A stretch of 64,000 nt of DNA from Pelagomonas calceolata (taxonomy: Eukaryota > Sar > Pelagophyceae > Pelagomonadales > Pelagomonadaceae). This document shows, in pieces, positions 31,745 through 53,573 of the stretch. The notes under the pieces were generated by a model. It was not told the origin of the DNA and ran no database searches. It worked only from the letters and a program-made list of their open reading frames with translations. Location of the stretch: contig CAKKNE010000002.1 of assembly GCA_918797485.1 (NCBI GenBank), positions 4,802,501-4,866,500 of the forward strand, given 5' to 3'. The number at the start of each line of letters is the position of its first letter. Position 1 is the stretch's first letter. A program made the position numbers and the translations under genes.

Positions 31745-34700
31745 CTAAGGACCTCGAGTCGCCGATTTTGGCCGGAGCTTGGTGGCCGATTTCGGCCGGC
31801 TAGTAGTACGGGAGCGGCGCTTCTTCCTCAATCGCGATTGCATGGGCGACTTGGGCTCTTCGCGCGCCTTCGCCCCGACTTCGAGTCCGTGATCGTCTGC
31901 AACGACGCGCAGGAACGCCTCGAGGTGCACGTCCTCGCCGCGCGCCCCCTCGAGCATAAGGTGCAGTTTGGCCTCTTGCGCGTCTTCCAATTCATAATCG
32001 CCGAGCACGTCCGCGTCGGCGGACACGAGGCTCCCGAACCAGCAGCAAACAGCCTGGGCGCCCCGTGCCCGGTCCGCCCGCGCACCGTGATCAGTTCCCG
32101 TGCGCTTCGTGAACCACGAGCTTCTAAGGACCGCTGACTGGACGGCAAGGGCAGCAGAAAGTTCCTTCTGCCGCGTCACGCGCTCGTCGTGCGTATCCCG
32201 CGCGATCGCGTCTGCAACGACGGAGAACTCGTCGAACAGGTCGTCGACGCCGTCCGTCGAGCAGTGGGCCGCCGCGAGCAGTTCCCGGAAGGCCTCCAAA
32301 TCGACGGCGCCGTGAGTCGCCGCCGCGTCGCGCTGCGCGAAGATCGCGGCCCACCTCTTCCGGCTCTCGGCGCGCCGCCTCCTTCTTATCACCTTCCGGC
32401 GCCAGTGCGTCTGCAGTAAACAGGCCGCGTCCCGCCGCGCCCGGGCCTCGCCCGCGAGGGCGCGGTCGCGCCGGCCCCACGCCACGCACGCGAGGAGCGC
32501 CGCGTCGCAGTCGGCCCTGGCGGGGTCCGCGTCACCTGCGTGGAAATCAAACTTCACGGCACTCCCTTCATTGAATCTGTTTGATGGCGTGACCTGACTC
32601 CCACGCCGCGCGCGACTGGCCGGGTCGCCGCCCCGCTCGACGGTCCCGAGCGCCTCCAGCGCCGCGACGGCCTGAGTTAGTAGGTCCGCGTCCAGATGCG
32701 TGAGGATCGCGTCCCTCGCCGCGTCGATCAGCAGCGGCAGGTCGAAGCGATTGCGCCCGAGCAGCGCCTTGCGCAGCTCGGCCGGCGCCTGGCGCGCCGC
32801 GTCGGTACCGCTCGACTGCGCGTGCACGAGACCGACGTACCGCCTCACGACTAAATTCAAACACTTCAAATCTGCTGCCTCGAGCGCCTCGGGGTCTCGC
32901 TCCGGAGCATGACTTCGACCGTCGCCCGGCGTCAACCCCAGCAGCACCGCGAACATCTCAAGCCGCGCGTGCCGCGACCGCGCGGTCGCGTCGCGGCACG
33001 TCGCGACGACCGCGCGCAGCTTCTTCACGGCTAGGTTCCGCATGCCGAAGCGCCGCACGCAGGCCGTCATCGCGAGCGTGCGGAAGGGCTTGGCTGCGGC
33101 CGCCGCCGCGACGAGCGACGCGACAAGCGCGTCGCCGCGCGCGCGCGCCTCGTGGACCGCCGCGGTCACCTGTGTGGAAATCAAAATTTCACGGCGCCTT
33201 CGTCGCGTCGACCTCCACGCCGTCGATGCGACGCCTGCTCGATGGCGGAGCACCCGACGCACTGGTTGATTTCCACACAGGCGGTCACGTCCGCTCTTAA
33301 TGCTTCTTCAAGTAATGCGGGGATGAGCTGCAGGGCCTGCTGGATGGGCATACCTCGCACTGCGTGTTTCCCGTGCCCGCGTCCGTGGTGGTGCGCTAGG
33401 CCGAGCTCGTGGTGCTCGCGCGCCCGCCGCGCGCGCGCCTGCTTGTGGAGCCTCCTTCTCCTCTTCTCGTGCGCGTCGAGCGAATGTCGTTTCCTGTGTG
33501 GAAATCAAAATTTTACGGCGCGTTCGTGCTGAATCGCCGCGTCGTCCTCCACGCCATCGACGCGACGCCTGCTCGATGGCGTGGCGATGCCGGTTCCTCG
33601 CCGCTCGACCGAGCCAGGACAGCCGCGTCATCGCCGAGAAATGACTTAGTGAAGAATTGTCGGGTGCACCCGACACACTGGTTGATTTCCACACAGGTCG
33701 TTTCCGGCGCCTCTGTCCGAACCCGTCCTCGTCGTCCTCCTCCTCTGAGTCGTCTCCTCCTCGCAAGAGCGTCTGCGTCTCCTTGTCCGCAACGTCGGGA
33801 ACCATCCTCAGCAACCACTGCGCGTCCGTTTCTCCATGTAGAGGCGCCGCAAGCGCGACCCTCCGCCGCCATTGCTCGTCCGACTCGCCCTCGGCCGGCA
33901 GCCAGCAGACGTAGCCGCCTTTGCGGAGACGCTCCTGGTACTGGTCATCAGTCTCGTCGTCGAGCCGCGGCGGCGGCGGGCCCCAGCCCCGGACGATGTC
34001 GACCACGTCGTCCGGCGACGCCACTGCTACTACCTCGCCGTCTCCGTCGAACTGCGACGCTAGCGTGTCCAGGAACCCCCCTTCCTCTTGCTTGGGCGAC
34101 GGCAATTCCTCGATCTTCTCGCTCACGATGTCCCCGAACGACACGTTAAAGTCCTCCTCGACCATCTCGGCCTGTGAGGAAATCAAGTTCAAGCGCCCTT
34201 CAATATGGGGTCTCTCGTGGTCTGCGCGAGATGCTGCTCGCTCTACGCGGTCGAGTGTATCCCTCGGAGGTCGTGTCCGAGTTTGGGCCGAAACCAGGGC
34301 CGCGGTGCCGAGATAGCGAGACGCGAATAATTGATAACCTGACTCACTGGTTGATTTCCACACAGATCTCAGCCATCGCCGCGTCCGTCGCGACCGCGTC
34401 GACGCCCGTCTCATACCCCAAGGTGAAGTTCTCCTTCCCCGTGCGCATCGGTTCCTGTTCCACCGTCGCCCAGGCGAGCTCGACCCTATCTTGTCCAACA
34501 GCACCCTGCAGCGCGTCCTTCAACACCGCGGCGCAGGCCTGGCGTCTTCTGGCATTCTTGATGGCTACCAGTAGCCAGGCTCTCATGTAAAGCTTGAGGC
34601 GGAGCCTTCTCACAACTTTCGCGTGGCGCACGTGCAACCGCCACGCCCTCAACGCCCGGTTCTTCGCCACCTGATCATATTTCCGTCGCCACCGCTCGAC

Positions 34701-35336
34701 GACCTCCCTATTTCGGGACGCCGTCGCCTTGCACGCGACTAATCGCGCTTTGAGTTGAGAAGCCACATCGAACCAAGGCGTCGCTCGCCCCAGCGTCGCC
34801 CGCGTGACGCCTCTGCTTAATTCCGGGGCAATTATGTGATCATAATCGGCAAAGACGCATCGTAGCTGCGTCTCCGTGAGCAACCTCGTGAAATTCCCGA
34901 AGCGTCGGTACAGCGTCGTGAGCTTCAGCAATAAATCTCCCGAGACGGCCGCCATGACGGCGTGCGGCTTGGCGTCGCCGTCCAACATGAGGGCCTCGCG
35001 TAACCGTAACTCGCCGTAGATCGCCAGGGACCGCGCGCCGCCCGACTCGTTATGTAAGGACGTGTGCCACGACTTGAGCTCCGCGTGGCTCAGCGTCGAA
35101 TCGGGGACATAGAACGGCGCCGTCTCGAAGGTGATGTGCGACATGTCGTCGTCCATCGATTCGAGCGACGGCGTGCGGCCTCGATGTAGCGCGTGCTCGG
35201 GCGACGTCATGCCGTGATGCGCGGTCGTACCGTAGGCTTCCAGGGATTTCAGTGATGGCGGGCCGCGCCGCCGTCGATACTTCTTCCGCTGTCCGGGGCT
35301 CGCGGGACTCGTGACGGAGAAGTTGTCCGTGAACAT
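31745..35336 (-). CDS. Unknown IQ/helical protein interrupted by introners
   Basis: Spliced model (minus strand): exon 1 35336-34374, exon 2 34171-33705, exon 3 33493-33289, exon 4 33169-31745, giving about 1,019 residues. Phases agree at every junction (963, 467+205 and 1,425 nt), and the paralogue at 27-28 kb reads straight across the second and third junctions. The protein has a Ser/Arg-rich N-terminus, helices with an R-A-L-R-A-W-R-L-H-V pattern near residues 240-270, an acidic/Arg-rich centre, a helical block shared with the paralogue, and a C-terminal region with an IQ-like H-W-R-R-K-V-I-R-R-R-R and a degenerate EF-hand-like segment. A calmodulin or cytoskeletal link is conceivable. An 81-bp in-frame stretch at 32536-32616 may be a fourth, decayed intron. 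Confidence 0.75.
32536..32616 (-). mobile_element. Decayed introner, in frame (possible 81-bp intron)
   Basis: The 3' end on the coding strand (TTTGATTTCCACGCAG) matches the introner end with one change. The 5' end GCGTGGGAGTCAGG matches the other inverted repeat at about 10 of 14 positions. Flanks GTCGCGCG and GTGACGCG look like an eroded 8-bp duplication. The 81-bp length keeps the frame open, so it may be spliced or translated. Confidence 0.55.
33170..33280 (-). mobile_element. Introner 1 (111 bp, internally deleted)
   Basis: Ends CTGTGTGGAAATCAA and TTGATTTCCACACAG are inverted repeats. The plus-strand flanks GCGGTCAC (33162-33169 and 33281-33288) are a perfect 8-bp duplication. On the coding strand the intron is 33288-33170, GTGACC...CACACAG. 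Removing it restores the A-D-V-T-A-A-V sequence seen in the paralogue. Inside, it is a shortened version of introners 2 and 4. Confidence 0.92.
33494..33696 (-). mobile_element. Introner 2 (203 bp) with GA donor
   Basis: Full inverted-repeat ends with perfect flanks GTCGTTTC (33486-33493 and 33697-33704). On the coding strand the target is GAAACGAC, so exact removal (33704-33494) implies a GA...AG intron. The interior has a perfect hairpin with 12-bp arms CCACGCCATCGA/TCGATGGCGTGG (33549-33560 and 33573-33584). About 9 differences in 203 bp separate it from introner 4. Confidence 0.9.
34172..34365 (-). mobile_element. Introner 3 (194 bp) with GC donor
   Basis: Ends CTGTGAGGAAATCAAG and TTGATTTCCACACAG, with flanks ATCTCGGC and ATCTCAGC (7 of 8). 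The coding-strand intron 34373-34172 starts GCTGAG and ends CACAG, a GC-AG intron joining A-A-M to A-E-M in phase 0. The interior is unrelated to introners 1, 2 and 4 except near the ends, so it is a second subfamily. Confidence 0.88.
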
Positions 35337-35907: not shown

Positions 35908-37187
35908 ATGTTGGCAATGCGTATCGCGTCGCGAGTTGCGAGGACCGCCATACGCGCGCGGACGCCGCCGGCGCTGCGCAGCCGCACCATCACAACTACC
36001 GCAGCGGTCTGCACCGAGCTCGGCGCGCCGCTCACGGTCCGCGACGACTGGACCCTCGCGGCGCCGGGCCCGGGCGAGGTGCTCGTGGAGACGCGGGCGG
36101 CGGGCCTGAATTTTGCGGAAGTGCTCCAGACGAAGGGCCTGTACCAGGAACGCCTGGAGCCGCCCTTTGTGCCGGGAAACGAGTGCAGCGGTACTGTCGA
36201 GGCGGTGGGTGCCGGCGTCGCCCACGTCAAGGCGGGCGACGCGGTCATAGCGTTACCGCGCGGCGGCGCCTGGGCGCGCCACTGTGTTGTTAGTGGCGCT
36301 GCCGTCGCGCCACTGCCGAAGCCCCCATCGAGCGACGCCGAGTGGCGGCAAGCCGCTTCATTGGCAGTCGCCTACGGCACGGCGGACATGGCGTTACGAC
36401 GACGGGCGCGTATGAGCGAAGGCGAGACCGTATTGATAACGGCGGCGGCGGGCGGCGTGGGACTAGCTGCGGTGGAACTCGCGGCGCAGGCGGGCTGCAA
36501 CGTCATCGCGGCGACGGGCTCGCCCGAAAAGGCGGAAATTGCGCTGGCCGCGGGCGCGGCCGCGGCGGTGTCCTACGGCGACGACCCGCGCGCCTTCCGC
36601 GAGCACGTCAAGGAGCTGGCGCCGGGCGGCGTCGACGTCGCCGTGGATATGGTTTGGCTGCGGTGCGGAATATGACAGTCGCGTAGTGGAGTGATCTCAT
36701 TGATCCCTACACAGGTGGGCGGGCCGCATCTGGAAGCGATCGTCCGGTCGATGGCCTTCGACGGGCGATGCGTGGTCGTGGGCTGTGTAGAAATCAAGCA
36801 GTGAGTTAGGTAATGGAGACCTTCGTGACCTCCACGCCATCTAGAAGACGTAGTTACGGGGACAATATCGCGTCGATGGCGTGAGACGCCCGAAATTTGA
36901 TTTCCACACAGGTCGTGGGCTTCGCGTCGGGGGACATCCCGAAGGTCCCGGCAAATTTGTTGCTCGTGAAGAATTGTTCGCTGGTGGGTTTGTACTGGGG
37001 CGCGCACGCCAAGGCCCGGCCGGACGCGTTCCGCGAGTCGCTCGGGCGCGTTTCGAAGATGTGGGCCGACGGACTTATAAATCCTCGAGTCGGCCTCGCG
37101 CTGCCGCTGCGCGAGGCCAACGCCGCCGTCGCAGCTCTAGCGGGCCGCAAGTCGACGGGAAAAGTCGTACTCACAATGGACGATTAA
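35908..37187 (+). CDS. NADPH:quinone oxidoreductase-like (zeta-crystallin/MDR) protein
   Basis: Three exons: 35908-36651, 36715-36774, 36912-37187, total 359 residues with consistent phase 0 at both junctions. Residues 1-30 are a basic organelle presequence. The MDR fold follows: a GroES-like N-terminal domain (G-P-G-E-V-L-V, then N-F-A-E-V-L-Q and P-F-V-P-G-N-E-C-S-G) and a Rossmann domain with A-A-A-G-G-V-G-L-A-A-V-E-L (about 175-187). The exon 2-3 junction restores G-R-C-V-V-V-G-F-A-S-G, typical of the family. No zinc-ligand Cys cluster is present, as expected for quinone reductases. Its stop TAA overlaps that of the converging methyltransferase gene. Confidence 0.92.
36652..36714 (+). mobile_element. 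Probable decayed introner (63-bp intron)
   Basis: A GT...AG intron whose 3' end TTGATCCCTACACAG differs at two positions from the introner end and whose 5' region GGTGCGGAATATGA loosely matches the other inverted repeat. The target duplication is no longer visible. Splicing joins V-D-M to V-G-G, as in quinone oxidoreductases. Confidence 0.65.
36783..36911 (+). mobile_element. Introner 5 (129 bp)
   Basis: Ends CTGTGTAGAAATCAAG and TTGATTTCCACACAG, with perfect 8-bp flanks GTCGTGGG (36775-36782 and 36912-36919). The intron 36775-36911 is GT-AG. The interior keeps the CCACGCCATC...CGTCGATGGCGTG hairpin but is otherwise shortened. Confidence 0.93.
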
Positions 37188-52277: not shown

Positions 52278-53573
52278 CTAGATGGACGTGACCTTGCCCA
52301 TGGAATCAAAGGCGACGTACTCCTTGTTCGACGAGCTCGCCATGAGCGTCAAGAGGTAGTCGAGCGACGCCTTGTGCTTCTCCGACGTGAAGCCTAGTTC
52401 GTCGTAGAGGTCCTTGAGACCTGTGTGCAAATCAACCAGTGCGCCGGGTGCACCCGAAAATTCCTCACTAAGTCATTTCTCGGCAATGACGCGGCCGTCC
52501 TGGCTCGGTCGAGCGGCGAGGAACCGGCATCGCCACGCCATCGAGCAGGCGTCGCGTCGATGGCGTGGAGGACGACGCGATGATTCAGCACGAACGCGCC
52601 GTAAAATTTTGATTTCCACACAGCTTAAGACCCTGGAGTCGGGCCACTTCGACTTTCTCGTCGGCCTCGGTCACGGCGTTCTCCTTGATCTTCGAGGCCG
52701 AGGCCGTGGCCTTCTTGGCCACGGCGTCGGCGTCGTTCTCGATCTCGAGCACCTCGACCGCGGTCTGCTCGCGCACGAGCGTCGCCTCCTGGCTGTAGGC
52801 CTCCTTCGCGTTGGACTCGACCTGGATCGCTACCGCGAGGCGCGCGCTCTGGTAGTCGTCTTCTGGCTCGATGTCCCGCAGCTGGAACGAGAGCACGTCC
52901 ATGTGGAGGTCCGCGATGGCCAGGCTCACGTTCCGCTGCAGCGTCGCCTCGATGAGCGGCCGCTGTGATAGATAGGAGTCGATGCCGAAGAGCGGCGCCG
53001 TGTTCCGGATCGCGTCCTGCGTCCGCGACGCCACGAGGCCCTCAAAATTTAACGCGACCATGCTGTAGAGCTCGCCCAGCTTCTCGGGTTTCAGGAGGTA
53101 CTGGTACGACACGTCCAGATAGACCGTCGAGCCCGCGTCCGAGCCGGAGGATTTGGACCACACGCTCAAGCGCTCGTTAAAGTTCTGGACGTTGAGCGGG
53201 TAGCACCGGAACGTGTAGTCGGGGCCGATGCCGTAGCGGCCCGCCTCGTAGACCTCATCCCGCCAGACCTTGCCCGTGGACTTCTGGCTGCGGAGACCTG
53301 CGACGCGAGGCGCGACTGTCGGCGCGACGCGGCGGCGGCGTTCTACCGACGACGCGAGGCGCGGCGGCGCGACCGCGGAGGACGAGGCCGGCCGCCAGCG
53401 CGACGGCGCGACCTCGAAAGGCCAACGGCCGGACGCCGGCGCGGACAGCCCTGGTAGTACTCGACCTTTTTCCAGGTCATCGGCAGCAGAATGAGCATGA
53501 GGAGGACCCCCAGGGCCGACAGGACGCCCGCGCAGCTGTAGCATCCCTGGCGCTCATAGCGATCCATGGCCAT
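52278..53573 (-). CDS. SPFH/band-7 membrane protein with an introner
   Basis: Exons (minus strand): 53573-53450, 53297-52632, 52420-52278; 310 residues, with all junctions in phase 1. Exon 1 encodes an N-terminal membrane helix (about 13-33) ending T-W-K-K-V-E-Y-Y-Q. Exon 2 continues G-L-R-S-Q-K-S-T-G-K-V and carries the SPFH core (V-Y-E-A-G-R-Y-G-I-G-P-D near 60) plus a coiled coil of A/E/K repeats. Exon 3 ends the coiled coil with L-K-D-L-Y-D-E-L. SPFH proteins oligomerise as membrane scaffolds. Intron 1 (53449-53298, 152 bp) is GC-AG; intron 2 is introner 4. It lies head-to-head with a WWE-SPFH paralogue, only 217 bp between ATGs. Confidence 0.85.
52421..52623 (-). mobile_element. Introner 4 (203 bp), opposite orientation
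   Basis: Inverted-repeat ends CTGTGTGCAAATCAA and TTGATTTCCACACAG, with flanks CTTGAGAC and CTTAAGAC (7 of 8). The coding-strand intron 52631-52421 is GT-AG and its removal joins L-Q-G to L-K-D. The interior is about 95% identical by eye to introner 2 but lies in the opposite orientation relative to its host gene. Confidence 0.92.

Follow-up and report, generated by a model that had tools for sequence, protein, structure and literature searches.

How genomes acquire new introns has long been debated, and introners count among the clearest living sources of them. A gene of Pelagomonas calceolata poses this question on a small scale. Within a window of 64,000 nucleotides, the whole stretch of DNA that was analysed (contig CAKKNE010000002.1, positions 4,802,501 to 4,866,500), the minus strand from an ATG at 35336 to a stop ending at 31745 contains, if left unspliced, 18 stops, the first at codon 331, and is interrupted by short elements with similar inverted ends. 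Are these elements introns that were gained by insertion, and what decided where they could stay?

The end motif CTGTGTGGAAATCA(A) occurs 11 times in the window at up to two mismatches, against 0.04 expected, in the form of five pairs and one single, and the minus-strand gene at 31745-35336 holds three of the pairs and the single. The three elements delimited by these pairs have inverted ends of 14-15 bp with the sequence CTGTGTGGAAATCA(A), and all are read on the minus strand. Element 1 (33170..33280, 111 bp) is an internal-deletion form with 94.6% identity to the consensus and fully matching duplications (GCGGTCAC/GCGGTCAC, 8/8), element 2 (33494..33696) is a full-length copy of 203 bp with 97.5% identity and equally intact duplications (GTCGTTTC/GTCGTTTC, 8/8), and element 3 (34172..34365, 194 bp) has the interior of another subfamily and duplications differing at one base (ATCTCGGC/ATCTCAGC, 7/8). 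The original prediction, which had placed elements of these sizes with matching 15-bp ends and 8-bp duplications, together with a relic, inside a single gene, was correct as to sizes, inverted ends, duplications and the location of all four in one gene, here assigned to the minus strand; the ends and duplications of element 3 fall short of a full match by one end substitution and one duplication base.

When elements 1-3 are each cut out together with one duplication, the minus strand is joined into a single open frame of 1019 codons plus stop with the relic kept, or of 998 codons with its 63 nt removed. Predicted exon 1 (34374..35336) ends in ...ATDAAM, exon 2 (33705..34171) encodes AEMVEEDF...GFGQRR and runs two bases into the following codon, exon 3 (33289..33493) encodes (R)KRHSLDAHEK...LEEALRAD, and exon 4 (31745..33169) has the relic inside; all are on the minus strand. 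The predicted introns all end in AG (3/3), for element 3 within its 3' end ...CTCACAG, the predicted acceptor, and they start with the minus-strand upstream duplications: GC for element 3 (34366..34373, sense GCTGAGAT, predicted donor), GA for element 2 (33697..33704, sense GAAACGAC; either a GA donor or a donor elsewhere) and GT for element 1 (33281..33288, sense GTGACCGC, predicted donor). The host protein, in the form with the 63 nt removed, has no match in Pfam at E<=1.

Beyond the elements listed in the original prediction, the window also holds two copies in two other genes. One, of 129 bp, lies in a plus-strand gene (36783..36911, plus strand) with a duplication GTCGTGGG matching 8/8 and a GT donor on the plus strand. 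The other, of 203 bp (52421..52623, minus strand), lies in a minus-strand gene with the element antisense to the gene and a GT donor on the minus strand, and is an example of an intron predicted from either element orientation.

To place these copies in their family, the genome was searched as 8 contigs of 32,445,274 bp; the RCC100 assembly is described as 32.4 Mb of nuclear sequence in six contigs, with one further contig each for the plastid and the mitochondrion (PMC9481584). Ends at no more than one mismatch numbered 1316 + 1296 (control 6 + 0), and 1642 ends were exact (control 0); at two ends per element, this corresponds to about 820 copies by exact ends and about 1300 when one mismatch is allowed. 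The sample studied in depth consisted of 100 plus-strand exact ends among the matches listed, on chromosome 1 between 0 and 4.92 Mb, plus the window; the DNA around the sampled ends makes up 90 loci. With ends accepted at up to three mismatches, 102 elements could be paired and 26 ends stayed single. Element lengths range from 56 to 206 bp, the commonest being 203 bp (15/102), so that the commonest inserted unit is 203 + 8 = 211 bp; in RCC100 intron lengths have been reported to peak near 210 bp, as is typical for introner elements (PMC9481584), and the two figures correspond. The duplications match at 8/8 positions in 49 of the 102 pairs, at 7/8 in 29, at 6/8 in 12, at 5/8 in 5 and at fewer in 7. 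Eleven of the single ends are exact; at 5 of these a second end is present in decayed form, its duplication matching 7/8 or 8/8, and the other 6 lack a convincing one. The family therefore comprises many similar copies at unrelated sites, with inverted ends and duplications of constant length. A scan of IMG/VR with a 21-base end, a collection from which records near this genome may be excluded, gave 0 matches to viral copies.

Whether the copies sit in coding sequence was assessed with a codon-usage model. It was trained on 75 long open frames, taken from the window and from twenty 9-kb loci, and host genes of some copies may be among them. In 95 copies, 7 of the 102 having been left out for a duplication match below 5/8, the element was removed together with one duplication and both flanks were scored for their best frame. 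The two flanks share one frame in 81 of the 95, lie on different strands in 8 and are shifted in 6; all 63 copies with confident calls on both flanks fall in the same frame, and none of the 14 that do not rejoin a frame is confident on both sides. A stricter test of the flanks could be applied to 80 of the 95, as 12 had another copy close by and 3 had flanks that were too short. Here 70 of 80 copies lie in a continuous coding frame, compared with 2650 of 4000 random sites (p 3e-5), and removal of one base more or one base less left no confident same-frame case among the 80 (unconfident cases, 3 and 2). The elements are thus enriched inside genes in this sample, where the original prediction would have failed had they been as common between genes. 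With about one third of random sites outside a continuous coding frame, copies between genes are rarer than neutral insertion predicts, which fits targeting and loss alike.

On the coding strand, the upstream duplication of the 81 same-frame copies starts with GT in 62, GC in 17, GA in 1 (element 2) and TG in 1 (L059), i.e. with GT/GC in 79 of 81, while the antisense start of the same copies gives GT in 11 and GC in 12. L059 has a small strand margin and a GT on its other strand; if it is re-stranded, the count becomes 80/81 and element 2 is the one exception in the sample. The other end reads AG in 81/81, and the predicted splice sites thus occupy fixed positions, as judged from sequence only. 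Counted on either strand, 101 of the 102 pairs start their duplication with GT/GC, element 2 being included for its plus strand. Among background octets the share is 31.7%, and sliding the position by 1-3 bases reduces the count to 11-35 of 102. The single miss, L071, has a duplication match of 1/8 and neither GT nor GC at the fixed position; a GT follows one base inward, and a cut at that GT suits the frames on the two flanks. Genome-wide, the 1642 exact ends include 679 with a GT start and 359 with a GC start (63%, against about 17% at random coding sites), and only 34 have neither a G first nor a C last, against about 751 expected from base composition. Eight of these 34 (L071 of the sample and 7 others) were examined: the coding strand offers a GT donor in L105, L106 and L107, a GT is displaced by one base from the fixed position in L103, L104 and L071, and L102 and L108 are without a convincing second end. 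Two pairs among the 34 share identical 8 bases and may represent duplicated chromosome ends of the assembly.

Donor positions 3-6 show no difference from background. Among the 81 same-frame copies, base 2 is unlike in the two duplicates of four, each time with T on the intron side and C on the exon side (4/4), which is suggestive of GC donors having been improved to GT after insertion, four cases being too few to carry more. The rule is strand-specific, and a transposase is not expected to see the coding strand; the same-frame copies, moreover, comprise 44 in sense and 37 in antisense orientation. This points to selection for splicing after insertion, and copies seem to persist where splicing would restore the protein. 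Copies free of such selection would show the 31.7% background, and since 101 of 101 fit (L071 omitted), their share is at most about 4%.

With high confidence, we regard the elements as introners, i.e. short non-autonomous MITE-like DNA transposons turned spliceosomal introns, their splicing being predicted; that they are introners in a coding gene, as originally proposed, is well supported by the reading frame, the duplications and the genome statistics. The sequences themselves show common inverted-repeat ends on the copies and 8 bp of target duplicated at insertion, and the element end ...TGATTTCCACACAG supplies AG as the last bases of the predicted intron, the inverted ends presenting the same 3' end in either orientation. 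The first bases come from the duplicated target, nearly always as GT or GC on the coding strand, and a cut from the start of the duplication to the AG restores the pre-insertion reading frame. The copies are presumably moved by a transposase with 8-bp staggered cuts that inserts them regardless of splice sites, copies without GT/GC at the duplication start then being purged; the end repeat probably also holds a branch point and a pyrimidine stretch, and the spliceosome would remove the elements.

One model for recognition of the 5' splice site, which we consider unlikely, is that the 14-15 bp end repeats fold into a stem in the transcript. The stem would mask the GTs within the element, and precisely the 8 bases of the duplication would stay single-stranded, so that the 5' splice site would be set by its distance from the stem and only G followed by T or C would be needed, in agreement with the background-like donor positions 3-6. 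An end-to-end stem, a necessary consequence of inverted ends, is predicted in 79 of 81 copies, and compensating changes gave no signal (2 double-changed, still paired positions among 1134). If the model were true, insertion in either orientation would create an instant intron, and spread would effectively be limited to sites that can be spliced. The sense 3' end and 5' end do not differ detectably in decay (0.36 and 0.54 mismatches per 14, p 0.44), and duplication mismatches are weakly related to identity to the consensus (rho 0.19, p 0.056).

Two other accounts of the family as a whole have to be weighed. The elements could be ordinary MITEs whose GT/GC start reflects a transposase preference for a GTNNNNAC-like target and is no sign of splicing. 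The 8-bp duplications would agree with this, as would a slight excess of A at duplication position 7 (26/81, p 0.0014) and of C at position 8 (34/81, p 0.019). A transposase is not expected to know the strand, however, and GT/GC stands at 79/81 sense starts against 23/81 antisense starts without being tracked by element orientation (44 to 37); the exact rejoining of reading frames likewise speaks against a target preference, which we hold to be very improbable. Still harder to credit is that intron RNA was copied into new sites by reverse splicing or retroposition and not by DNA transposition. Almost all sampled copies do sit where splicing is possible, as such copying would have it, but a moved intron would bring its own first bases, whereas here the first 8 intron bases are those of the site and are repeated after the element (exactly in 49/102, at 7/8 in 29/102). 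The genome was searched for a mover among hAT dimer, KDZ, P-element RNase H and MULE families and relatives of the hAT protein. An element of 3651 bp with a 721-codon open frame was found at C4:4499549-4503199 (L100:2650-6300), bounded by identical 20-bp ends CAGGGCAGCAGAAGGGCAAG and an identical 8-bp duplication TTGCTCGC; it is the only hAT copy found in the genome searches and perhaps a recent arrival. As the mover of the introners it was rejected, its ends being CAGGGCAGCAGAAGGG and not CTGTGTGGAAATCA: the introners share with hAT-derived MITEs the 8-bp duplication, and do not share the ends of this genome's hAT element. MULE transposase had no match in the genome, the same search being positive in 3 of 14 control genomes, and P-element and KDZ had no match either, in searches that were positive in none of the control genomes and hence do not speak for absence.

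Within the host gene, element 2 and the relic each admit more than one reading. Element 2 is an exception to the GT/GC rule on its gene's strand, its sense donor being GA. It may be a GA-AG intron, may use a nearby GC or an internal GT donor, or may be a young, tolerated insertion. Three donors would keep the frame: the GA, a GC 6 nt upstream (-6), at the cost of two codons, and, within the end repeat, its second GT (+12), which would add four codons. Alternatively, element 2 may be no functional intron at all, and instead a recent, perhaps polymorphic, harmful insertion, or one serving an antisense transcript. Its duplication reads GT on the plus strand, and GA ends are without genome-wide excess (47/1642), 39 of the 47 finishing in AC or GC, which is GT/GC on the other strand. 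These facts lean that way, as does the GA itself, but both flanks of element 2 carry their coding signal on the minus strand (margins 22 and 27 in the codon-usage model), and with three frame-keeping donors at hand we consider a non-intron rather unlikely. Eight of the 47 GA ends lack AC/GC at the other side of the same copy; three of these were examined, and L086 and C1:5889119 have GT/GC in the other copy. At L109 (C4:4602710-4603390), in confident plus-strand coding sequence, the donor-side duplication has GA and the exon-side copy GC; this is possibly a second GA donor, or a case of a GC donor 3 nt upstream. The relic (32536..32598, minus strand) had been described as an 81-bp in-frame element with eroded ends. 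It is indeed worn and the frame is open, although no clear 81-bp unit is seen and its extent is nearer 63 nt; the 5' end is lost, having been cut back to ATCAAACAG, while the 3' end TTTGATTTCCACGCAG, ending at 32536, is still there with one change, its acceptor motif reading CACGCAG. With or without the GT...AG stretch of 63 nt (32536-32598), the frame stays open. Agreement between the flanking octets, GTCACGCC and GTGACGCG, is 6/8; a cut at these octets (58 nt) breaks the frame, and one from a GT five bases earlier (63 nt) keeps it. The relic appears to be an older insertion that retained its acceptor side and lost its 5' end, and the host gene would thus have received three introner copies and an older, now worn one. 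That the relic is no longer an intron and its 63 nt (21 codons) are now translated falls somewhat short of an even chance in our estimate: the frame stays open when it is kept, the 5' end is gone, an end-to-end hairpin is not predicted and the acceptor motif is altered, but the 63-nt GT...AG removal preserves the frame as well, and the shortest sampled elements (56-64 bp, plus 8) are roughly of its size. Its fading into coding sequence, as suggested originally, is accordingly possible, with a 63-nt GT-AG intron equally open.

The original prediction had further taken the host gene as evidence of successive waves of intron gain. The copies do not show this, as identities to the consensus of 97 copies (duplication match at least 4/8) form one broad hump. 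At least two subfamilies with common ends are present: elements 1 and 2 belong to one, and element 3, with 80.7% identity to the 203-bp consensus and many alignment gaps, belongs to another. The introners are mildly clustered, 7 of 99 gaps between copies being shorter than 1 kb against 2.0 expected under uniform scatter, for which the introner model offers no account. A further locus, L098 (C1:4917910-4919610), has three introners within 1.1 kb and resembles the cluster in the host gene.

Introners with such mechanics have already been published for pelagophytes and many other organisms, and the elements are of a known kind. Huff, Zilberman and Roy are said to have described, in 2016, introners of Aureococcus anophagefferens and Micromonas as short intron-creating DNA elements that have inverted ends and duplications of constant length, and that carry one splice site and co-opt the other; the Pelagomonas elements are alike in general description. 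Constant-length repeats and canonical splice motifs are reported for the A. anophagefferens introners (PMC7789003). The splice-site layout found here, with the 3' splice site carried and the 5' site taken from the duplication, is that of the type shown in Fig. 2B of Gozashti et al. 2022 (PMC9860276), a study whose main text contains no mention of Pelagomonas. The families treated there are enriched in genes, with selection against badly spliced copies, and include rare GC and GA donors, GA making up 0 to 40% depending on the family; gene enrichment, apparent selection for proper splicing and rare GC/GA donors are common to them and the Pelagomonas elements. Family 4 of Aureococcus sp. adds 12 bp to the transcript (PMC9860276), which for element 2 is possible only as an alternative. 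Introners of Amoebophrya resemble those described here in their inverted ends, direct repeats and capacity to form hairpins, but their direct repeats measure 3-5 nt and their splice sites vary strongly (PMC7789003), in contrast to the 8 bp and mostly GT/GC-AG sites in P. calceolata. For P. calceolata itself, the account of its introners consulted here (PMC9481584) is without the end sequence, duplication length, donor rule and orientation statistics given here. The size of the donor rule and the exception of element 2 are, as far as the searched literature goes, the addition of the present work.

The picture of intron gain is unchanged in kind by this family. Its usefulness lies in ends that are short and nearly perfect, in duplications of constant length and in a genome assembled at chromosome scale, so that a rule of survival, GT or GC at the coding-strand start of the duplication, is legible almost copy by copy. 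The few copies that break the rule, one of them in the host gene, would tell which donors the spliceosome accepts.
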